Shown here: positions 2,041 to 52,768 of the stretch, in pieces
Position numbering within the stretch: position 1 is the first letter of the stretch
How the letters are laid out: each line of letters begins with the position of its first letter
Origin: Verpa conica
Taxonomy: Eukaryota > Ascomycota > Pezizomycetes > Pezizales > Morchellaceae
DNA: 64,000 bases
Assembly: GCA_033030425.1 (NCBI GenBank)
Contig: JAUFSD010000021.1
Span: 496,001 to 560,000 of the forward strand
Direction of reading: 5' to 3'
The notes under the pieces: model-generated
The model's database searches: none
The model's input: the letters and a program-made list of their open reading frames with translations, nothing else
What the model was told of the DNA's origin: nothing
Position numbers and translations under genes: made by a program

Positions 2041-2464
2041 TGTCAAGAACAACAAATCATCAGTTCTCACTCGGTCACAAATTGTCACTCGACCACCAGT
2101 CAGCCTTGCCCGTTTCATATCAGTTTCATGTCTAGTCTCATTTGTGTTTCATGTATGGGATGACGTGGCCTGCCACGTCATCAGGATCTCCTTAGTTTCA
2201 TATCACGTATCATGTTCTTGTTTCATGTAGTCTGACACGCTACGCGTGTCAGCCCCTTCCCTTTCATGTTTCGGCCATACTATAAGTATCGAGCCATTTC
2301 CCCAGTTCTTAGTCTTAGCTCTCTATCCTTCAACTTGTATTTACTACCAAGTACCTACTCTAGTTCCAGTCTTCCCAGTCTTCTAGTCCATGTGCCCTTA
2401 AATTTCCCAGCCTTTAGACATCACCTGCTGTCCCCACTAGAGCAAGGGCTTGTGTACTTTTACA
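2041..2464 (+). repeat. Left LTR of family L element
   Basis: This is a 424-base LTR with TG...CA ends. It has two perfect palindromes (see the regulatory entry) and a TATA-like CTATAAG near 2280. It differs from the right LTR mainly around 2400-2415. Confidence 0.92.
2159..2251. promoter_or_regulatory. Two palindromes in the LTR promoter
   Basis: GATGACGTGGC-CT-GCCACGTCATC (about 2159-2182) is a perfect 11-base inverted repeat carrying two TGACGTGG half-sites of the kind bound by bZIP factors. CTGACACGC-TAC-GCGTGTCAG (about 2231-2251) is a second palindrome with 9-base arms. A TATA-like CTATAAG follows about 30 bases later. The same layout recurs in the right LTR and, slightly eroded, in the L copies at 46143 and 50325. 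A promoter or enhancer role is inferred from position. Confidence 0.55.
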
Positions 2465-2807
2465 CTTTGAAGGATCTACCAGCATGACAGCACCTGGTGT
2501 CTCATCACCAACTAGAGAAATCTCCTTCTCTACCCCACCAGCCAAACTCCCTGTCAACAAACACCAAGGGCTCTGCCCTTCTCACGGAGAGGGACCTAAC
2601 CTCTCAAACCAGTCAACACTACCAAGGACTTCGTCCTTCTCACGGAGAGGGACCTAACCTCTCATCCCTACGTCTACCAAATCCTGTCAAGCAGTACCCA
2701 CTGGAAGCCTACCCAATATTCAGAGACACAGTCCTGAAGAAAAGTAGTATGAAAAGTGCAGTCACTGAACCACGCCATAACTATTTCGAGTACCCAACAC
2801 TCGATTC

Positions 2808-3810
2808 CGTGTTGAGCACCACGAGCAAGATACACACCCACCCAGTCATCAACAAAGGAAGCGAACCCACCGACCAAGCCTCTCCTACTTCTCCAAAATC
2901 CAACACAAACTCCTAAATTCAAGTGGCTAAAGCCCTCGAATAAGCCAGCAAAACCCTGTTAAAAGACTCCACCAAGCCTCCACCCAGTCATCAAATTTTT
3001 TTTTTCTCGTCTTGCTGCATTCAAGCAGCAATACTCGATTTTTTTTCTCCAATGCTCGGGGACGAGCATTCTCGGAGAGGGACCTAGGGGTGAAGGAAGG
3101 CCTCAGCCAAACCGAACCTCCAAGCCAAGAAACTAGGATGGAAGCAAGAACTCAACTATGCAAGTACCGTCTTGTGAAGATGAAGCCAGGCGTAGCTACA
3201 CGAGAGTAAAAGTAGCAGCTGGTTGCATGAAGCAAGGCAGAACGGAACAAAGGAACAAGCATAGCCCAAAGCCAACAGTTCTCCATCCTACAAACCATTA
3301 AGTCAACATTTCCCTCGAAGAAGCCAACAAATAGAAAAAACCCCCACGGGTTCACAAACCTAGAATTTTTGAAATTTTAGTTGCCAATCACCAACCCACC
3401 ACTCCACCACCAAGAATCAAAAAAAGCAATAGAAGCAACCAGCGTCATAGTACCTGAGAACGACTATTACCCCTTTTCGTGATTCTTCATTCATCAAACA
3501 TCTCCTGTTTCAATCCCGTGTTGAGCCTCTGCGGCAAGATACACATTCCCTGTTTTTTGAAACACGCCCTGTTTCAATTCCGTGTTGAGTTTCACAACAA
3601 GATACACATTCCCCAGTCCTTTGAAACATACCCTGTTTCAATTCCGTGTTGAGCCTCTGTAAAACAAAGCAAGATACACACTCCTTATCTTTGAGACGTG
3701 TTCCGTCTCATCCCGTGTTGAGCCCCGGTGGCAAGATACACATTCCCCAGTCCTTTGAAACATACCCTGTTTCAATTCCGTGTTGCGTTTTTACAACAAG
3801 ATACACACAG
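2808..3810 (+). repeat. Six-copy hairpin minisatellite inside the family L element
   Basis: The pattern CCGTGTTG...CAAGATACACA occurs with its first half near 2808, 3516, 3579, 3644, 3713 and 3778. The last five form a near-tandem array with a period of about 65-70 bases. The centre between the two constant parts varies, yet each copy keeps self-complementarity, for example TTGaGCC...GGCAA, TTGaGC...GCAA and GTTG...CAAC. Spacers between units share CCAGTCCTTTGAAACATACC. Function is unknown. Confidence 0.75.
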
Positions 3811-3920
3811 CCCAGTTCACAATCCAACGTCTATAAAAGACTAAACTCTCGTGCGTCCACGGAACCAGAAAGAAAGTCTTACGAACCAAAAAAGTACTCC
3901 AGAAAACCCATTATCCCCCA

Positions 3921-4156
3921 ACATGTCCCAACCTCAGGAAAACACTACTCTCCCCTCCAAGCCAGACAAAGTCAAAAAGTCTGCCAACCACGAGCATGCC
4001 TGTATGCACTTCACTGCCTGTTACGATGACGGATGTCTCATACATTACAGCGCCAAAGTAGGAGCCAACTACTTTCCCCAGAAACGCAAAGTCAAGCGTA
4101 CCAAGAAGCGTCAAGTTAGACGCATATCAGACGGCAACCCTAAAACCAGTTGTTAA
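3921..4156 (+). pseudogene. Residual retroelement reading frame with Cys/His cluster
   Basis: Starting at the ATG near 3921, about 78 codons read to a TAA at 4154-4156. The product has a charged N-terminus, then HACMHFTACYDDGC followed by IHYSAK, then a basic tail (KRKVKRTKKRQVRR). Cys and His spacing of this type appears near the end of some fungal Gypsy-type polyproteins. It may be the surviving end of a larger polyprotein or a small basic accessory protein. The frame is open from upstream (3851), so the true start is uncertain. It ends just before the polypurine-like tract and the right LTR. Confidence 0.4.
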
Positions 4157-4185
4157 GGGACTAACAACCTCGGAGAGGGACCTAC

Positions 4186-4609
4186 TGTCAAGAACAACAA
4201 ATCATCAGTTCTCACTCGGTCACAAATTGTCACTCGACCACCAGTCAGCCTTGCCCGTTTCATATCAGTTTCATGTCTAGTCTCATTTGTGTTTCATGTA
4301 TGGGATGACGTGGCCTGCCACGTCATCAGGATCTCCTTAGTTTCATATCACGTATCATGTTCTTGTTTCATGTAGTCTGACACGCTACGCGTGTCAGCCC
4401 CTTCCCTTTCATGTTTCGGCCATACTATAAGTATCGAGCCATTTCCCCAGTTCTTAGTCTTAGCTCTCTATCCTTCAACTTGTATTTACTACCAAGTACC
4501 TACTCTAGTTCCAGTCTTCCCAGTCTTCTAGTCCATGTGCCCTTAGTGTCCCAGCTCTTTAGACATCACCTGCTGTCCCCACTAGAGCAAGGGCTTGTGT
4601 ACTTTTACA
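4186..4609 (+). repeat. Right LTR of family L element
   Basis: This 424-base repeat matches the left LTR except for a short cluster near 4545-4560. It is followed by TAGGG, the target duplication. Confidence 0.92.
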
Positions 4610-42177: not shown

Positions 42178-44365
42178 TTAAGGCCGATTCTTAAACACGC
42201 TCGGCAATTTCTTTGCTGCCTCAGCAATTTTCGGAGAGTAGTGCTTTCTTAGTAAAACTGTTTCCCAAATAGTCGCTGCGTAAGGATTACTAGTTTCTGG
42301 CTCGTCGATATCCATTTTGTATGTTCCATCACCAACTCTTTCCTCTGTGGAGAATAACCCGTGGAGTCTCCGTTTGTGTTTTCTAGCCATCTTATTCAAC
42401 ATTTCCAGTGTTGCTAATGTCGACTTCTCTGGCATATTCAAACTCGAAGTCATTAGTCGTTTTGTGAACGCTGCAATTCGGATCGGTGTGTTTGACTTGT
42501 TCGTATTTTGCTGGAAAAAGATTGTATTTAGCGCGCGAATGAGCATCTCGATCTCAGTTGACACGTTGATTCGTTTTGAGGGCGGTGTGGGATCATTTGG
42601 ATCAGGAAGATGGAGGGATTTTGTAGAGAGTTCAAGATCGGGAGAGATCGAGAGAGGGATTAGAGTAGCGTAGAAATGTGCTGTGAAAAATGTTAGATCG
42701 ATATTCATCCCCTCGCCTGTTCTGGGAGTTAGCTACTTTGGTTCGAAGTACGGTTAAGGAAGGGGGAGACTACCTTGACCAGACAACAAGGCAAACGCTG
42801 TTATGATGCAGAGAAGAGTTTCACGGGTGGAGTTGCGTTTCGTTGGAGTTTCGATATCGCCTATCTCCCCTGCCTCCTCTTCTAATGCTGTAGTAGTAAG
42901 CTCTTTCAAAGCTACGAGGAGATCACCAAAAAAGTCCATGTTTATTAGGTGTGCATATCTACGTACCCAAGCTGTTAATTATAACTGCTCCATTGTAATG
43001 AAGGTGGGGTGAATCTCACTTTGCTAGCCCCTCTAATGTTGCGCCCATGAGCCCTGGTGGCCTTTCCTTGAGAATCCTGAAGTAAGTCCCAAAGACCAGC
43101 TTCAGCGTCTCAGACTGTCTCTCTTCCTTTTCCTCGTGCGATACTGTTGCGTCTGCTTCATCCATCTCCTTCTCAGAAACTCGCCTTTCCTTTTCTATTT
43201 TCCTAGCCTTCTTGGTCCTGAATGTACGATCTTTCTTCTTGCGTTTCCTTGGGTTATCAACCGCTTCCGAAGAAGCTTTTATGTCGAGCTCCGAAAGAAG
43301 GCGTAATGATAGAAACGTATTTAGGGTAGATTCGTCCACATTGAAACTTTTGGCTTTAAACATCTTTGTGAGGAGTTGAACAGCCTCAAATGAAGCTGCA
43401 CCATCATCGTCATTGCGGAAAAGGTCCTCTAGTGCTATACGACATTTTATAAATATCTCATCTACCGTCTTGATGCTAACTCGCTCGACAATGATTTTGA
43501 GAAGTTGGCTACGAAAGTTAAAATGTGGGACTGCGGATATGAGACCACAAGCACAATTTACTGCGATCCCTCCGAGGGCAATGGTTTTTGGTGAGCGGTC
43601 GTTTCTAGAAGCTGCTATTTATTAGTCTACCATTATTTCTGATCTCAAATAAAAGAGGCTCACCCCGAGACAAGTCCGCTAGGCTTTCGACATATGCTTG
43701 GTAATTTGAAACTAGAGACTGCTCGAAACCTCTAAGCTTCTTCACTTCCTTTGTAACTTTAGCCTTCTGCTCCTCCTCTGCTAAAGGTCTTATCCTATAG
43801 CCTGGTATAATATTTTTGTAGATGGCCAATTGTGTCGCTAGTGCTAGCTTCTGTATAGTGACGTTCTGGTCCTCTGATATCTCGCGCAGTTTCCGGAGTA
43901 ATCCAACCTAACCCGATAATCACAGTGAGAAACGTTTATGTCGAATAAAAACCTCTAATCGATGGTTATACATACATTCTCCTCTGGATCTTCATTTAGG
44001 CTTGTTGCAACATTTGCAAGCTCTTCTTTCGCATCTACTATTCTCTGCCGTTCTGAAATCTTAGGGCGGACCTCTTCCTCTAATAGTTCTTCCGCAACTC
44101 CAACCCAATCACCACCACCATCGCCATGTATATCCTCTTCGCCACTGTTATTTTCTCTCTCTAGAATGTGGGGTTGTTGTACTAATCCACCAGCAGTCTT
44201 AATCGGGAGTCTACTACTCTCCTTCTCCATCTTCCTCTTCTTTAGCGCTCGTGGTCGCCGCTCGTAATCCTGCTCGAGATCCCATTGTGCAGCGGCAGAA
44301 AAAGGGTGCTCATCTCCAGAATTTTTAGGAGTTGTGAGACTCAAGGTATTCTTCTTGGTCTTCAT
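42178..44365 (-). CDS. NOC3: Nucleolar complex protein Noc3
   Basis: I read five exons on the minus strand: 44365-43976, 43907-43664, 43614-43020, 42958-42774 and 42716-42178, giving 650 residues. Noc3 pairs with Noc2 in pre-60S export from nucleolus to nucleoplasm; in yeast it also has a reported role at replication origins. The Noc3 domain is visible as NVTIQKLALATQLAIYKNII and PGYRIRPLAEEEQKAKV. It continues with SLVSNYQAYVESL and VNCACGLISAVPHFNFRSQL. The middle holds a Lys/Arg/Glu-rich block (NPRKRKKKDRTFRTKKARKI). The C-terminus has a CBF/Mak21-type segment, IAAFTKRLMTSSLNMPEKST, followed by RRLHGLFSTEE. Length matches yeast Noc3 (663). I chose the ATG at 44365 because the frame further upstream has no ATG. 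Confidence 0.93.
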
Positions 44366-44789
44366 AGTGTAGTGGGATCTTCTCCAGCGGGTGTTTTGCA
44401 GAGTTATGAGTTCTGGAGTGTAGTTTGGTGTTTGGTTGTCAAGCTTTTTTTTTTCTTCCTTCTCATTAGCAGAGCCGCAAACACAAGGGCTAGGGTTGCG
44501 GGGTTGGTATTCATAGGCGCTAGTAAACAAATCTTCCAGCAATAGTACCAGAGTCTTGTTTAACCTACAATACTCACTTTATTGAATTATCATCGCCTTA
44601 ATCTCACTAGATGCGTCTTTGCATATTTCTTACGGGAGAGCCTGCCCAGGGGTACACCCAGACCAATAGGCTCATTAGTTACCTATAGTACGGTGTCGGA
44701 TCTTATCGTAAAAATACGATGTAACCGCAATCACCCGCAACCCCACCCACGCAACCATAGATCACCCCATATCTCCTCCAAGCAAAGCC
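44366..44789. other. Noc3 upstream region
   Basis: About 420 bases without a supported gene. It is the promoter side of Noc3 and merges into a degraded transposon. Confidence 0.5.
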
Positions 44790-45145
44790 GTAAAATAATA
44801 AGGCTTATCTTCATGTAAGGTAATTCTATGATCCATATAGCAGATCATACAATGGATTTATTGGTGGATAATGGGGTGGAGTTGTTGGAGGTCTGGCCTG
44901 CCTATTCTCTAGATCTCAACCCTATTGAGCATGTTTGGGTACACCTCAAAAAGCTCTACCATCTATACTATTTCCACTTGGTAGATAATACTAAATTGCC
45001 AGAGGTATTAAAGCCTATGATATAAGAAGCTCTTATTCACTGCTGGGAGTTGATACCTGATATTCTTTTTGAAAGACTGATAAAAAACATTCCTAGGAGG
45101 ATTGAGGTTATTATAAAGGCAAAGAGTTGGTATAGAAAGTATTAG
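44790..45145 (+). pseudogene. Tc1/mariner-type transposase fragment
   Basis: The translation includes HTMDLLVDNGVELLEVWPAY then SLDLNPIEHVWVHLKKL, the hallmark end of a DDE transposase of the Tc1/mariner/pogo group (Glu in PIEHVW). An in-frame TAA at about 45023-45025 breaks it, after which EALIHCWELIPDILFERL continues to a stop at 45143-45145. Just upstream, MetTAA-GGT-AAT replaces the usual Met-Gln-Asp-Asn; the TAA would be a C-to-T change of CAA. The N-terminal half is missing. This is a dead relic beside the LTR nest. Confidence 0.75.
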
Positions 45146-45451
45146 ATAGAATATACTATAGTGCAAGAAGTCTTTAAAGTGTGCCTATATTTGAGCTATA
45201 ATGCAATCGATTTTTTAGTGGTTTTAGAGATGACTCTTTAAAAATATATAGTAAGGTGGTTTTAAAATAGGCTGTTTCTATACAGTTGGCTTGTAATTGA
45301 AGTTACTAATTTTTGGAATTTTTTAGTGTTTTTACCAATTTTTTAAAGTAGTTTTGGGGGAGGCCTAGTGTCACGGGCAGTTCCGGAGATACTGCACAAA
45401 CGTATAGAGCAATCAGTTCCAAATCAGACCAGCGCCCGCAGAAGGGGTCAT

Positions 45452-45810
45452 TGTAAAAACCGATCACCTATTGGGGAACAGCAGGCGATAATCACAAGGC
45501 AAGGCTAGTATCGAGAGACTAAGGGCTCAAGGACAAGGTAGGTATGGTAACAATATAAGTTGTTGCGTGAAGAACTAACTAACGGGCAGAGATGCGTCCC
45601 TTTTATACCCTTTCTGGAGGGACGCTGAGATCAACAATGAGACAATATGAGACTGAAGGAGCGACCTCCTTCTACATGAAACTATAGACGTCTCGTCCTG
45701 CAAGGCGTACTCCTTACATGACCAATGATAACAGGAATCCTACGAGATATGAAACGATACACGAAACAAGGAGATGGACAAGGCAGACTAGAAAATGGGT
45801 GTTCTTGACA
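45452..45810 (-). mobile_element. Solo LTR of family S
   Basis: This 359-base insertion in R1 has GTCAT on both sides (45447-45451 and 45811-45815). Read on the minus strand it starts TGTCAAGAACACCC and ends GGTTTTTACA, with GGTATAAAAGG as TATA box. Its termini resemble family L, but the body is different, so it is a related family. Confidence 0.85.
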
Positions 45811-46383
45811 GTCATCTTTAATATTGCCTTCACAAGGAGATTGAGTCGATTGCTTGCACAATAGTGCTGCCGTTTTACAAAAGAGTTCCAAAAGAGGTCT
45901 TTTAAGTCTGTACCGTTGCACGGAACGTTGATGGGATGCCAGATTTTTGGGATTAAGTTTTTTCTGGAGCTTTACATATGTTGAAGGAGACTGAATAGGA
46001 GTAGGATATCTGAAAGGCTTTGACGGGGCCTTTGTACCTTTAGTACAGGATTAGTAGGGGGAACTGACTTGGAGAAAAGATTTAACATATTTAAAGAATT
46101 TGTAAATCTTAGTTGTAATTTTTGGTAACATGGAAGGAGAATTGTATCAAGAACGACAAATTATCAGTTCTCACTTGGTCACAAATTATTACTCGACTAC
46201 CAATTAGCCTTATTTGTTTCATATCAGCTTCATGTCTAGTCTCATTTATGTCTCATGTATGGGATGACGTGACTTGCCACGTCATTAGAATCTCCTAGTT
46301 TCATATCGCGTATCATGTTCTTGTTTTCATGTAGTCTGACATGCTACATGTGTCAGAATTTTCCCTTTCATGTTTTAGCCATT

Positions 46384-47768
46384 CATCAGCAAACTTGAAG
46401 GTTTCTCTCTGACGCATCTGATGCATCTGAGGCTTGGGATGCAGTTGGTGGAATTCGACGTGTGACGACTTAACCATCGTCATGACTAGTCTTAAGTATC
46501 TCTCCATATAGAGACACCTAAGGATCTCCCTTGAGGAATAGGACTAGCTATCCCATTCCGGTCAATAGATACTAAGGAAAGTCATTACTATGATAGCCCG
46601 ATCCCTAAGCGAGCTGGCGAGCTCCTAGGACGTAGCGAAGCTCACCGTCGTCGGTATGCGACAGAGACCAGAGTAATGCGTCTGTAGCTTATAGCTTCGG
46701 GAGATACTAGTGCAATGAGACTGAAGCAGTTGCCTCCATGAACAGAGTTAAGCTCCTGTTCCTCTAGGAGAAATAACAACGGCTTCGCTGATGGCCAACC
46801 TTATGGGAGGCCGAGAGCCGTGAGATGAAAGCAAAGCTATGCTTACTAGTTAGGGCCGCCAGCAAAAGTAATAATTAACCTGGCGGCGTCACGATCGAAC
46901 CATACGGGGCTATGCCTTGTGCTTCGCCCTAAGGTCCTTATGGATCAAGATTACCTCTCCGCCACGTCCCCAGGTTGGACTAGGAACGTGGGAAAGGAAT
47001 CTAAGCAACGGCAGGAATCATCAGTGGGTTACCCTGCCTAGGGGACTCTGTGTTTTCTAACACCCGCGAGGCGTCCCACTGTGCCACCCGCCGTTTGCAG
47101 AGGGGGCCCCCCTGAGTTGCAGATTCCCTAACAAAAAGACAAGTTTTGGACCCCAAAAATAACCCCAAAACCGTCAGGAAAATTCGTCCAACCAAACCTA
47201 ACTCGGAGGGTATATGGGGGACAGTGCTGCAAATCCATAGGTGCAATCGGATTTGAAATCGGACCATTATAGCAAAAGTTACAGAGCTTTTAGTAACCAA
47301 CGCTTTTTAGTCGCTAGTCTATCGACCCCGCTAGTTCTTAGGGGCGCTCTAGACTCAGTTGATTTCCAAGCACGGAGGAACTGTTCCCCGCTCCTTGGCA
47401 GCCTGCTCGCAATCAAAATCCATAGCTTAAACCCGTCCTTCCCTCAAGACAATCATTCTTGCTAGTCAACGAACAACTGTTGTTCAGAGACCCTCATACT
47501 CTTCGCTAAAGACGTTTGTCTTCCCCTGGGAAGCAGAGCCTTTTAAAGTCTTTAGTTATCTATCCATTAAATCCTTATTCCTGTTTTGCCTAGGGACTGT
47601 CGACCTTCCGTGTTGACGAGCGGTTCTAAGCCTCGCTGCTGAAGCTTCTCGTCAGAAAGGGAGGTTGTTGGTTTTTTCTGGTACGGCAGTACTCCCCTGG
47701 GAGTGCCCCCGTTACAGTATCCTGACACAGTGCTTGTCCCTCCTGATACAAATTTTAGTTTGCTGATG
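46384..47768. mobile_element. Element X1 with CATCAGCAAACT terminal inverted repeats
   Basis: Perfect 12-base inverted termini, CATCAGCAAACT (46384-46395) and AGTTTGCTGATG (47757-47768), bound about 1.39 kb inside L3. Family L sequence resumes on the right with CAGTTCTTAG; about 20 bases of the LTR between the two flanks seem to be missing. No coding frame of note was found. The inside contains a tRNA-like stretch on the minus strand (about 46885-46975). The superfamily is not recognised. Confidence 0.6.
46885..46975 (-). other. Possible tRNA-derived stretch
   Basis: On the minus strand GACGTGGCGGAGAGGTAATC resembles the A-box region of a serine-type tRNA. About 55 bases later ATGGTTCGATCG resembles a B box. 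The acceptor and T stems do not pair well, so this is not a functional tRNA. It could be a tRNA pseudogene or the head of a SINE. Confidence 0.25.
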
Positions 47769-47794
47769 TTTTCTCAGTTCTTAGTTTTAGTTCT

Positions 47795-48429
47795 TGTAAC
47801 GGCGGGGCTTAGGGGGCGTGCCGAGGTGACGCGGACAAGGAATTTGGTTACTTTGGAAAACGACAAAAACTCAGGCAGCAACAATGGTTCTTCGGAAAAA
47901 CTTTTAGATATAACAAATTTAAGAGACAGAAAATTTCTTTGATAGTAGATTTAGGAAACAAAAGAATGCATAATGAAAGAAAACTCACTAGGAAGGGGGC
48001 GAAGCCCCTCTTTATATACTCTGTTTTCCCCTTCTTCGTGCAACCCAAATCCCTTCCCCGTACATTTCGTTACTCTTTTACTATTACAAATGTCGTCGAA
48101 CATGTCATGTTCAACGCGCAGGTCCTTTCCTATGCTGTTCCCATACTAAATCTACTTCTTTTCTACCGCTTCCATTGTGCACACCAGTCTAATTCCGCTT
48201 CTTCCCACCGGTTCAAGACCTTCAAAGGACCCAGTCCATCCGATCCCCTACGTCCTACCTACGTCCCGTGTAACACAGATAGCTTAAACCTTTTAGAATC
48301 AGTTCCTTTCTCGTAACGCTAAGTTAAAGACGTGCCTGCAATCGGTCCGATCTTCTAGTGGGGGCAGGGGCAAAGGTAATTTGTTTCCGTGGGCACCAAC
48401 GCTTCACCTCTTCGGAACTGTCCGCGACA
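47795..48429 (-). mobile_element. Solo LTR of family R, reversed (copy R3)
   Basis: A 635-base insertion in L3 is flanked by GTTCT (47790-47794) and GTTTT (48430-48434), a target duplication with one C-to-T change. Read on the minus strand it starts TGTCGCGGACAGTTCCG, close to the R1 start TGTCACGGGCAGTTCCG. It has a TATATAAAGAGGGGCTTCGC segment matching the R promoter block. It contains a long but meaningless open frame. Confidence 0.65.
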
Positions 48430-48500
48430 GTTTTTTATTCTTCAACTTGCATTCAATACCAAGTACCTACTCTAGTCCTAGTTTTCTAGTTCATTTAGTC

Positions 48501-49824
48501 CATCATCAGCAAAAACAAAGATTCCGCCCCGCTCTCCTGGAGAGCGGGGCAACGATTTCGCAAACCTACTCTCCTACAGGTGCTTTACACTGCACGTCAT
48601 CTCCGGGAGATCTCAGGGCGGACGCTAGCAGTCCGGAAGATGCCGGGAGAGCCTCAATAAGAGTAGAACAAAAAGTTGCGTCTAGAAGAGTCTCAATTCT
48701 CAATTCTCTATTCTCTATGTTCTATCTAATCTATATACAAGAATATATCTGCTTTGCTGCCTGCTCCGCTGCCCCCCCCCCTGCTTGCCCTTCCGCCTGC
48801 CTGCCTGCTTGCTTGCCTGCTTGCTTGCTTGCCTGCTTGCTTGCTTGCTTGCTGCCTGCTGCCGCTGTCGCGCTGGGGGGCAGCTCGAGGTCCAGTCGAC
48901 GCGTCGGACATGGGGTGTTTGTACCGGGACGGATAGGTTGTTCGCTTGGTGACCCGGAAGCTGCTGAAGCCTTGCTGGGGTCCTGGGGGGGGTCTACTGC
49001 CTGCTGCTGCGCTAGGTGTCAGGTTGAAGTCCAGTCGACGTGTCGGACCAAGGGTGTTCGTACCTGGACGGGTTGGTTGTTTGCTTGGTGGCCCGGACGC
49101 TGCTGGAGGCTTGCTGGGGGTCCTAGGGGCCCTGCTGCAGCTGTCGCAGGAAGAGGTCTGCCTGGGAGTCTGCTCGAGGTCCATAGACGCGTAGGACATG
49201 GAGGGTTTGTACCGTGACGGGTAAGTTGTTCGCTTTATAGGAGAGAACCTGCCCATCCCCCACCCCCCGTCTGCCTGCCTGCTTGCTTGCCTGCTTGCTT
49301 GCTTGCTTGCTTGCTGCCTGCTGCCGCTGTCGCGCTGGAGGGCAGCTCGAGGTCCAGTTGACGCGTCGGACCAAGGGTGTTCGTACCTGGACGGTTAGGT
49401 TGTTTGCTTGGTGGCCCGGGGGCTGCTGAAGGCTTGCTGGGGGTCCTGGGGGTCCTGGGGGTCCTGCTGCAGCTGTTGCGCTGGGGGTCCTCTGGGGGTC
49501 ACATTGACGTGTCGGACATGAGGTGTTCGTACCGGTACAGCCGCTGGGGGGGAGCTACTGCTGGCAGTGCTATAAGGCGCTGTTTTCAATAGTTAGCATA
49601 GGTTCATAGAGTGGTAGTGAGTGGGTGGGGGGTGCTGGGGGAGAGGGGTTGCAGGCGCGTTAATGTGGTACGGCCGGGTAACACCAGCACCTCTTCAGGA
49701 GACTGGGGGCGACGGTCCCTTGCCCGGGTGCTGAGGGGTCGGCAGCGCTCTCCAGGAGAGCGGGGCGAACTTTCTCCGCCTGGGCGACGAAAATCTCCCA
49801 GAGAGTTTTTTTTTGCTGATGATG
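48501..49824. mobile_element. Element X2 with CATCATCAGCAAAAA termini and internal tandem repeats
   Basis: CATCATCAGCAAAAA (48501) and its inverse (ending 49824) bound about 1.32 kb inside L3. Just inside the left end lies a 25-base palindrome (GCCCCGCTCTCC-T-GGAGAGCGGGGC, 48525-48549); a partial copy, GCTCTCC-A-GGAGAGC, lies near the right end (about 49747). The core holds five imperfect direct repeats of about 150 bases, starting with a CCAGT-GACG motif near 48892, 49031, 49181, 49353 and 49501. Two blocks of GCTT/GCCT microsatellite add to them (48795-48853, 49262-49313). The open frames seen here are by-products of the repeats. The termini relate it to X1. Confidence 0.65.
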
Positions 49825-49868
49825 TATCTATAGTGTCCTAGTTCTTTAAAACATCATCTGCTGTCTCC

Positions 49869-50989
49869 TGTTGCGGGCAGTCTCAGAGATATTGGGAAAA
49901 CGTATAAAGCGATTGATTCTAAACCGGACTGGCGTTTGCAGAAGCGGGTCACCTTTAACATTGCCCCCACAAGGAGATCGAGTCGATTGCGTGCGCAATA
50001 GCGCAGCTAGTTTACGAAAGAGTTCAGAAAGTGGTTCTTTAGGCTTGCGCCGTCACACAGGACGTTGATGAAATGCTAGATTTTGGGAGTTAAGCTTTAT
50101 TAGGGTTTGCGCATATGTCGGAGAAAACAGAACGGGAATAGGATGTCAGAGATGTCCCGAAGAAACATTTGTACTTTTAGTATTGAATTAGTATGGGAAA
50201 GTGACTTAGGGGAAGAATATGACATATCCAAGAGAATTTGTAATAGCTGAAGTGGTTTTAGGTAATGCGGGCAGGGAAACGAGGCTTGGAGGGTTAGGGG
50301 TTTTGGTATATAAGTGGGGCTTCATGTAAAAGTACACAAGCCCTTGCTCTAGTGGGGACAGCAGGTGATGTCTAAAGAACTGGGACACTATGGGCACATG
50401 GACTAGAAGACTGGAAAGACTGGAAAGACTGGAACTAGAGTAGATACTTGGTAGTAGATACAAGTTGAAGGATAGAGAACTAAAACTAAGAACTGAGGAA
50501 ATGGCTCGATACTTATAGTATGGCCGAAACATGAAAGGGAAGGGGCTGACACGCGTAGCATGTCAGACTACATGAAACAAAAACATGATACGTGATATGA
50601 AACTAAGGAGATCCTGATGACGTGGCAAGCCACGTTATCCCATACATGAAACATAAATGAGACTAGACATGAAACTGATATGAAACGGGCAAGGCTGACT
50701 GGTGGTCGAGTGACAATTTGTGACCGAGTGAGAACTGATGATTTGTCGTTCTTGACACTTCACCCCGCTTCGTGGAGGACTTACTTTCGTTACGCAATCT
50801 CTTGTTTCCTAAAGTTTTTTGCTAAGAATTCCATTACTTTCTTGGATCTGTTATCTCCAAGAAGTCTTACCGAAAAATCATTGTCGCCGTCCAAGTTCTT
50901 GCTGTTGTTCCTTTGCCCCGTTGAAAACGAAACAAAATCCTCACCGTATCACAGTCACCTAGGTACCTTCCCCAAGCACTGCCGCTACA
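49869..50989 (+). mobile_element. Solo LTR of family R (copy R2) inside L3, split by L4
   Basis: R2 starts TGTTGCGGGCAGTCTCAG and ends CTGCCGCTACA. It is flanked by TCTCC (49864-49868) and TTCCC (50990-50994), both one C-to-T step from the TCCCC of intact L. Its body (49869-50324 and 50763-50989, about 680 bases) aligns with R1. A TATATAAGTGGGG promoter-like block lies at about 50309. It is interrupted by L4. Confidence 0.78.
50325..50757 (-). mobile_element. Solo LTR of family L, reversed (copy L4)
   Basis: This nearly intact 433-base L LTR lies on the minus strand, flanked by a perfect CTTCA target duplication (50320-50324 and 50758-50762). It keeps the TGACGTGGC palindrome and the CTATAAG box. 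It is slightly longer than the 424-base copies because of extra AGACTGGAA repeats near 50410-50430. It is the youngest layer of the nest. Confidence 0.88.
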
Positions 50990-51306
50990 TTCCCACTAGA
51001 GCAAGGGCTTGTGTACTTTTACAGATTGAGATCAGGAGGTTTGGGAGATTTTGTTATATAAGCAAGACTTCACTTCACTTCGTGGAGAATTTTCATTCGT
51101 TACGCAATCTTTTTGTTTCCAAAGTTTTTAGTTAAAGAAATTCAGTATTTTCTCTTTGGATATATTATATTTAAGACTTTTATTATACAAATACCGTTGC
51201 CGTCCAAGTCCTCATTGTTCTCTTAGAATTCTGCTGAAACTCTAACAAAAATTCACTGTTACCGTTCTCTGTGTCATCTAGGCACGTGCAAAGTCCTGCC
51301 GCTACA

Positions 51307-51719
51307 CCTAAGAGGTTCCAGTACAGTTTGTTGAAATTTCATTTAGTCACGTGGTATTTTCGTTACCCTACCTTCGGGGTTATTGTTTGACCGTTTTTGT
51401 TACCCTGTTTTTGGTTACCCTGTTTTCGGAGGAATATTTACACCGTTGGTGTTTACGGGTAACTTGTTTATTGTTTTTGCTTGTGTTACTTTTAGTTAGT
51501 ATAAGTAGTTTAGGACTCTGCCGGTTAGCAGAAGAATCAAGCGAGTTTCATCAGCTTTACTGCGCAAAACAGTTCACCCCCCAAAATGTTACACTTTTGC
51601 TTTTTTAGTGGTGGTTTCTACCAGAATATCACCTAAATCCCAAAATCCCAAAAGTTTACTACACCATGGAAGAAAATCCTATCAACAAAAACTATTTAGC
51701 CAGACCTTATTTATCACCC
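51307..51719. other. Flank between LTR nest and next element
   Basis: Contains direct GTTACCCTGTTTT repeats (about 51395-51435) and a short frame beginning ATGGAAGAAAATCC at 51666 that runs into the next element. No gene is recognised. Confidence 0.45.
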
Positions 51720-52768
51720 TATCCCATGGTCTGTAACACGATTTGGGCTAAAAACAGCCCAATTCCTCCAGCTGTTCCCCCACAACCACCACAGTCTTTG
51801 ATAACTTTGAAAAAATTATATAAGCTATTTAAGTATCTAGAGAGCCTATCTATTACATTATATATTTAATTAGATATTACCTTTAGTGGATTGGTTGATA
51901 CTAAACTACTGGCTTAGCACTTATTACAGTGTCTTTTTTTTAGGGTAAAAAACTCTAGCACCCCCACAATGATTAATAGTATTTATTTTATATGGATAAA
52001 ATAGTAGAATTATCAATTAGAGGATTTATTTGGGTATAGATTTTTTTAGAGCATTTTTGGTTGAGCTTTGATTTATTTAGATGACTGAGTGACCACTTAT
52101 GAATGGTGAGGAAGTTGGTTGCCACGCAAAAATAACGGTCTGAGATATACCAGCAGGGTATATATGGTCATGGTGTAACTTTTGGGCCGGAAATCTCACT
52201 ATTTTATGTATACTTCCAACAATCAAAAATAGAATTATGATTCTGAGAGACTAAAATTTTTCATAGAGAGACTAGTGTATATAGAGTACTTACTAGGAGC
52301 TGCGTGAAAATCTATCTATCATAGTACCTGTACTAGAAGTAATCTACTAAATTGAAATAAAATATCTAATCAGTTAAGTTGGGTAGATATTATAAGAATA
52401 AAACCAAGGGTCTAAATATTTTTCATAGTACTGAGTAATAGGTGACATTCAGGAGATTAAAATAAGCCCTTTATTAGTATAATCGGAGGAATTGGGGATG
52501 TAGTAGTCTTTCTTGCTAGACAGTTGTGATTTGTGGTTGTAAAAAATGAGGTCTTTTTACCTCTACTGCTATAATAAATTTTATAGCCAAAAAAAATCGG
52601 AAAAATTTCTAGAAAAATATCAGAGAATCTACAACTGATGGAAATTACATTGATAATAGTTACATGAAGTTATATGTGGTCTCTATTGGGTGGTTGCTAG
52701 TTGCATACAGGGCATTAAAATTCGCACCATATTTAGTGCGAAATTGCGTTGTTACAGACCATGGGATA
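51720..52768. mobile_element. Non-autonomous TA-flanked inverted-repeat element
   Basis: TCCCATGGTCTGTAACA (from 51722) and its exact inverse (ending 52766) bound about 1.05 kb. TA lies on each side (51720-51721, 52767-52768), the target used by Tc1/mariner elements. The interior is AT-rich and encodes no transposase. The left TIR falls inside a small open frame that begins at 51666. Confidence 0.7.

Follow-up and report, generated by a model that had tools for sequence, protein, structure and literature searches.

How a stack of long terminal repeats (LTRs) lying one inside another came to be built is the question raised by positions 45369-51306 of the window analysed here, a 64,000-nt stretch of Verpa conica DNA (C21:496001-560000) to which all coordinates refer unless a locus or contig is named. 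The sequence-only reading of this stretch had proposed that two LTR families, R and L, inserted alternately into each other, four levels deep. We compared the nest with the rest of the genome (45.8 Mb searched, 25 contigs; in most of the related-copy lists for the families of the nest only the best 40 candidates were scored). It is very probably an accumulation of solo LTRs and remnants of DNA transposons in transposon-rich fungal DNA, built by serial insertion. Four layers, R1, L3, R2 and L4, enclose one another in turn, and a second four-deep chain leads from R1 through L3 and TIR-A (TIR, terminal inverted repeat) to T. Because of this nesting the insertion order is R1, L3, R2, L4; the nest is of an ordinary kind, and the stack fixes the order of several insertions. 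Its parts are as follows.

45369-51306, plus strand (probable, from its TATA box): R1, the outermost solo LTR, of a divergent R subfamily; pieces 45369-45451, 45811-46142 and 51024-51306; flanks CCTAG/CCTAA.
45452-45810, minus strand (coding sense as inferred from full-length S): S solo LTR of 359 bp inside R1; flanks GTCAT/GTCAT.
46143-51023, plus strand (probable coding sense, the L ends resembling those of S): L3, solo LTR of L inside R1; pieces 46143-46382, 47769-47794, 48430-48503, 49822-49868 and 50990-51023.
46384-47768, strand not given: TIR-A, what is left inside L3 of a larger TIR transposon: its two ends (46384-46460 and 47717-47768), the middle missing; CATCAGCAAA at one end and its inverse at the other.
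46461-47716, strand not given: T, a 1256-bp solo LTR with TG..CA ends inside TIR-A; flanks CGACG and GTATC, which differ.
47795-48429, minus strand: reversed R solo LTR (R') inside L3; flanks GTTCT/GTTTT; best relatives about 68-74% alike.
48504-49821, strand not given: TIR-B, a 1.3-kb element inside L3 with CATCAGCAAA ends, internal tandem repeats and a 2-bp AT duplication.
49869-50989, plus strand: R2, solo LTR inside L3; pieces 49869-50324 and 50758-50989; flanks TCTCC/TTCCC.
50325-50757, minus strand (probable coding sense, on the same likeness to S): L4, an unbroken 433-bp solo LTR of L inside R2, oriented oppositely to L3; flanks CTTCA/CTTCA.
50307-50770, plus strand: R2 TATA box (50307-50314) and the near-palindrome AAGTGGGG-CTTCA-CCCCGCTT, split by L4 at its 5-base loop.

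The ends proposed for the four layers are borne out by matches to copies elsewhere, and the rejoined pieces of R1, L3 and R2 align as continuous LTRs, in the order in which they lie in other genomic copies. Along the R copy at C10:970794-971473, the R2 halves cover 1-455 and 451-680, the 5-base overlap being the duplicated CTTCA; they adjoin with the identical overlap in C7:1303342-1304023 and C24:519550-520224. The L3 pieces map in order onto a near-intact L copy in the fetched locus L007 (1503-1738, 1777-1851, 1850-1895 and 1893-1924), overlapping by 2 positions at TIR-B and by 3 at R2; about 17 L positions are unaccounted for beside TIR-A, where 38 L007 positions lie between the pieces and about 21 bases are present before the reversed-R duplication. 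The R1 pieces flanking L3 join within 2 bp at 443/444 of a sister copy, L071 (C1), 80-86% alike. The best genome matches elsewhere exclude chance (E 7.7e-47 for an R1 piece, 2.2e-71 for the R2 3' half and 1.4e-206 for L4).

The five target duplications reported for the nest stand in part. Those of S, confirmed as a solo LTR within R1, and of L4 are exact, that of R1 agrees at 4 of 5 bases, and those of R2 (L4's complement reads TCCCC there) and the reversed R are decayed; at L3, flanked by AGAAT and GATTG, a clean duplication is lacking, and its flanks fit the sister copy about equally well whether they are joined with or without removal of 5 bases. L4 is 93-97% identical to 39 other near-full copies (best 40 of 83 candidates), and S is 99% identical to the copy in L030 and 93-97% to its other near-full matches. 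R1 is 70-77% identical to R copies over longer matches and 66-80% by piece, mostly 66-73%. The reversed copy in L3 is indeed present, but at 59-62% to most of the R copies compared, and about 68-74% to another set of relatives, it is assigned to a subfamily other than those of R1 and R2. By these comparisons R1, R2 and the reversed R belong to different subfamilies, so the layers are not copies of two tight families.

We counted matching flanks, defined as agreement at at least 4 of 5 bases, over distinct end-to-end copies in the window and the fetched loci. Together with TG..CA ends, such 5-bp duplications mark the families as LTRs, being found in 7 of 11 R, 7 of 13 L, 5 of 21 S and 12 of 24 T copies; all 6 remaining L copies and 14 of the 16 remaining S copies have internal-region flanks, as for LTRs of full-length elements. 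An internal region is absent from every layer of the chain, and the layers are therefore read as solo LTRs, as the earlier interpretation had it. R fits this description by its flanks, and loss through LTR-LTR recombination is the likely route. By eye, the R list (best 40 of 79 candidates) shows no two R copies on one strand at the spacing of a full element, nor was an internal region seen for R or T.

Full-length S copies are recognized as same-strand LTR pairs about 6.3 kb apart. Matches to a reverse transcriptase (RVT_1, E 1.1e-23), to a Tf2-1-like SH3 and, just above the cut-off (25.3 bits, cut-off 25.1), to a chromodomain (Chromo, E 1.5e-5) lie in the internal DNA of one such pair, on the strand opposite to that reading TGTAAAA. 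By its reverse transcriptase and chromodomain, S is a chromodomain Ty3/Gypsy element, a chromovirus. These three domains are like those of the fungal chromoviruses surveyed in "LTR Retrotransposons in Fungi" (PMC3248453). L is represented in the window by a full-length copy at 2041-4609 (2569 bp, flanked by TAGGG at either side, the two LTRs agreeing at about 99.5%), judged from its sequence to be a recent insertion, and further L pairs occur elsewhere. Full-length L copies are about 2.6 kb, and the longest stop-to-stop frame overlapping 2300-4400 has 142 residues. L seems to be a non-autonomous relative.

S and L have common terminal bases and common bases after TTGACA (GTAGGTCCCTCT). Beside the other LTR end, each carries nine bases whose complement occurs in the element's own LTR (ACGCAACAA for S, ATCCTTCAA for L); in S the complement within the LTR lies 3' of a TATA-like box. 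Tf1-type elements self-prime, their priming site being complementary to the 5' end of their own transcript. S and L resemble them in that the nine bases next to one end of the LTR find their complement within it; they differ in that the match is of nine bases only and the priming is putative. Self-priming can be argued for both because the nine bases differ between S and L yet each set fits its own LTR, and S may self-prime. As L has no long frame between its LTRs, and has the terminal bases, the bases after TTGACA and the possible self-priming arrangement in common with S, it would probably be mobilised by enzymes of S-like elements.

Two TIR elements had been placed within L3. TIR-B stands; its 48810-49533 stretch holds tandem repeats at about 138-bp spacing and a CTTG/CCTG-rich stretch. 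The other, taken as a single TIR element at 46384-47768, was rejected, its middle being a solo LTR between two ends of a TIR transposon. The interval 46461-47716, which has 40 other near-full copies at 95-97% (best 40 of 358 candidates), lacks the terminal inverted repeats of a TIR DNA transposon, and its TG..CA ends and the matching 5-bp flanks in 12 of 24 end-to-end copies, the window's copy not among them, identify it as an LTR, family T. The 78 and 53 bases flanking T in the window occur elsewhere as separate CATCAGCAAA transposon ends (left in L074; right in L076, L077 and L003), and no intact single copy with both TIR-A ends was seen among the loci compared. Probably, two T insertions in one TIR transposon recombined to leave T inside TIR-A, which would explain both the differing flanks of T and the missing middle of TIR-A. 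Other T copies, at L052, L053 and L068, are nested in or abut further T copies in both orientations.

Decay had been said to fall from the outer to the inner layers, and in this the branch lengths disagree. Ages were taken as terminal branches of FastTree trees of genomic copies, in which long branches include subfamily history as well as time since insertion. R1 has branches of 0.41 and 0.52 (inflated by subfamily distance), L3 of 0.103, R2 of 0.115 and 0.089 (two regions), the reversed R of 0.18, T of 0.018, L4 of 0.004 and S of 0.003. R2 is thus about as decayed as its host L3, and the reversed R more so; the innermost L4 is young. Transition/transversion ratios are 12 for L3, 9 for L4, 6.6 and 2.0 for the R2 halves, 3.3 for R1 and 3.4 for T. 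Changes from C to T outnumber the reverse by 21:3 in L3, 55:15 in R1, 50:23 and 11:9 in R2, 16:8 in T and 7:2 in L4, the counts coming from single reference copies and their direction being approximate. By context, the L3 changes fall at 7 of 43 CA, 5 of 19 CC, 7 of 22 CG and 2 of 24 CT sites, a C-to-T excess without CpA preference, on which ground CpA-type repeat-induced point mutation was rejected as the cause of decay.

Each LTR element would have entered an older one and duplicated 5 bp of target, as is visible for most layers; recombination between its two LTRs would then have removed the internal part together with one LTR, as the solo structure suggests. Growth of the nest may have been aided by earlier insertions being harmless targets, and the chromodomain present in S, a domain type reported to steer integration to heterochromatin, would favour nesting. 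Several observations weigh against this account. The target duplications of R1, R2 and the reversed R are imperfect and the L3 flanks do not match cleanly; half of the end-to-end T copies (12 of 24) have unmatched flanks; no full-length R was seen, so the superfamily of R and its loss by LTR-LTR recombination stay inferred; L is tied to S by its ends and possible priming sites only, their LTRs aligning poorly (73% of aligned bases, 123 gap columns); and chromatin state is not readable from sequence.

Copies related to the families of the nest are spread over many contigs. Elsewhere, the fetched loci hold R in R, R in T, T in R, T in T, L in T and S in T; in L069, R contains an LTR of about 600 bp that itself contains a 1.16-kb insert. 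Six of these families cover on average 24% (median 17%) of the flanks of 64 fetched loci, compared with 1.5% of the window outside 45000-51500; these loci were fetched for holding the families, and some overlap, so that the coverage reflects clustering and is not an unbiased density. The 1.76-kb insert of L069 (322-2085) was rejected as one LTR element, being nested itself; its LTR family (TGTAACC..ATTACA) also occurs in other fetched loci, among them L027, L055 and L068.

The sequence-only reading had concluded that R and L were active in alternating bursts, which goes too far and which we regard as very improbable. It accords with the order fixed by nesting, and within L the outer L3 is older than L4, as their branches indicate. 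However, the branches of R2 are similar to that of its host L3, the three R layers come from different subfamilies, and a four-step chain of two equally active families would alternate by luck 1 time in 8. Given the several nesting combinations at other fetched loci, no special mechanism is required to explain why R and L alternate; a second such alternation was not seen in these loci, a small sample chosen by family. That the nest is instead a rearranged block, produced when earlier nests were duplicated and recombined and not by serial insertion, would fit the duplicated-looking nests found elsewhere, among them L012 and L016 with a common R-in-R junction and flank, and the unmatched flanks of T in TIR-A. 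We consider it extremely unlikely, as 5-bp flanks that match or nearly match adjoin the exact LTR ends of most layers, and reading the listed matches by eye showed no other site with the same set of pieces. L012 and L016 are both on C19, and L010 (C2) has the same flank as this pair, which may represent a duplicated nest or a repeated target.

Serial insertion leaves room for a preferred site, and L4 lies at a conspicuous one. Our list of breakpoints in R copies, made by hand, has 26 entries, including truncations and counting the duplicate pair L012/L016 once; it omits a break near 355 in the R1-like L071, match ends at 69-71%, and the reversed R. Six of the 26 fall within 19 bp at R positions 441-459, at the TATA box and the palindrome after it (the reference copy has TATATAAG at position 438 and reads TATATAAGCGGGGCTTCACCCCGCTT in this region). 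The inserts there differ: L4 in R2, exactly at CTTCA between the palindrome arms (one left-arm base differs in R2's own palindrome); R in R at 449-451 (GGGCC/GGCCT); the nested LTR of L069 (ATAAG duplication); a 240-bp CATCAGCA TIR element (L023); a 277-bp element that duplicated the 8 bp TTCACCCC (L013); and, in L010, a break left without explanation. In uniform-scan trials, a 19-bp window with as many breaks has p 0.012 and 0.013, becoming 0.019 with two divergent-copy breaks added and 0.079 without L010; for the 13 breaks of which the insert or both sides are visible, 5 of them in the region, p is 0.004.

Target sites of R and L are also more palindromic than shuffled sequences. Among 12 tests (at 2, 6 and 10 positions a side, respectively), R gives p 0.0075, 0.003 and 0.031 and L gives 0.36, 0.005 and 0.002, whereas neither S (0.48, 0.51 and 0.65) nor T (0.23, 0.057 and 0.089) shows a significant excess; 6 of 7 R, 6 of 7 L, 5 of 5 S and 11 of 12 T sites were used, two 4-of-5 matches and one cut flank being omitted. 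That the R LTR has an insertion hot spot at its core promoter and palindrome, where R copies tend to be split by several families, is nevertheless somewhat doubtful. The region was chosen post hoc from a hand-made list, the scan loses significance once the unexplained L010 break is dropped, and two further clusters of four breaks lie at 242-256 and 315-326. Moreover, the R-in-R flanks are not a clean duplication, a 2-bp AT/TA target fits TATATA anyway, and the palindromic L sites include that of L4 itself. The hot-spot evidence is suggestive only. The wider proposal, that this core promoter (TATA box and palindrome with 8-bp arms) is a common landing site for unrelated LTR, TIR and 8-bp-duplication elements, so that nests grow preferentially at LTR promoters, we think unlikely. 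At L057:2824-3699 an R copy is broken at 325/326 with its halves oppositely oriented and 193 bp apart; three other R copies break in 315-326.

Just upstream of R1, 44831-45140 resembles the remnant of a Tc1/mariner-type transposase, with an in-frame stop (DDE_3, E 2.4e-5, 24.6 bits, below the Pfam cut-off of 28.6). No RNA family reaches its gathering score in 44000-52500. Among the genes of the window are GPI2, CBF/Mak21, a TCP-1 chaperonin and a poly(A) polymerase of the Cid1 type; of at least 120 matches to the T-complex eta exon, nine are labelled with an organism, in each case a fungus, and five of these are Ascomycota.

A search on nesting hot spots at TATA boxes and palindromes gave one work that by title is on the subject, a survey of nested LTR retrotransposons covering 12 plant genomes (Jedlicka et al., 2019; PMC6911290). 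It describes nesting as non-random and, in some families, as occurring within the family; inserted LTR elements have preferred positions and weakly favour palindromic sites, and LTRs are not often hit. Bias in nesting and palindromic targeting are already on record for plants. Non-random insertion of LTR elements into one another, in part within a family, and a palindromic-target preference are common to the survey and the DNA described here, but the host here is a fungus and the targets are solo LTRs. The nest, built very probably by serial insertion, is useful for the transposon history of this genome and is not surprising. The hot spot, if true, would provide a small testable case of different integrases and transposases using one structural or chromatin target, and would contrast with the plant survey (PMC6911290) on the targeting of LTRs.

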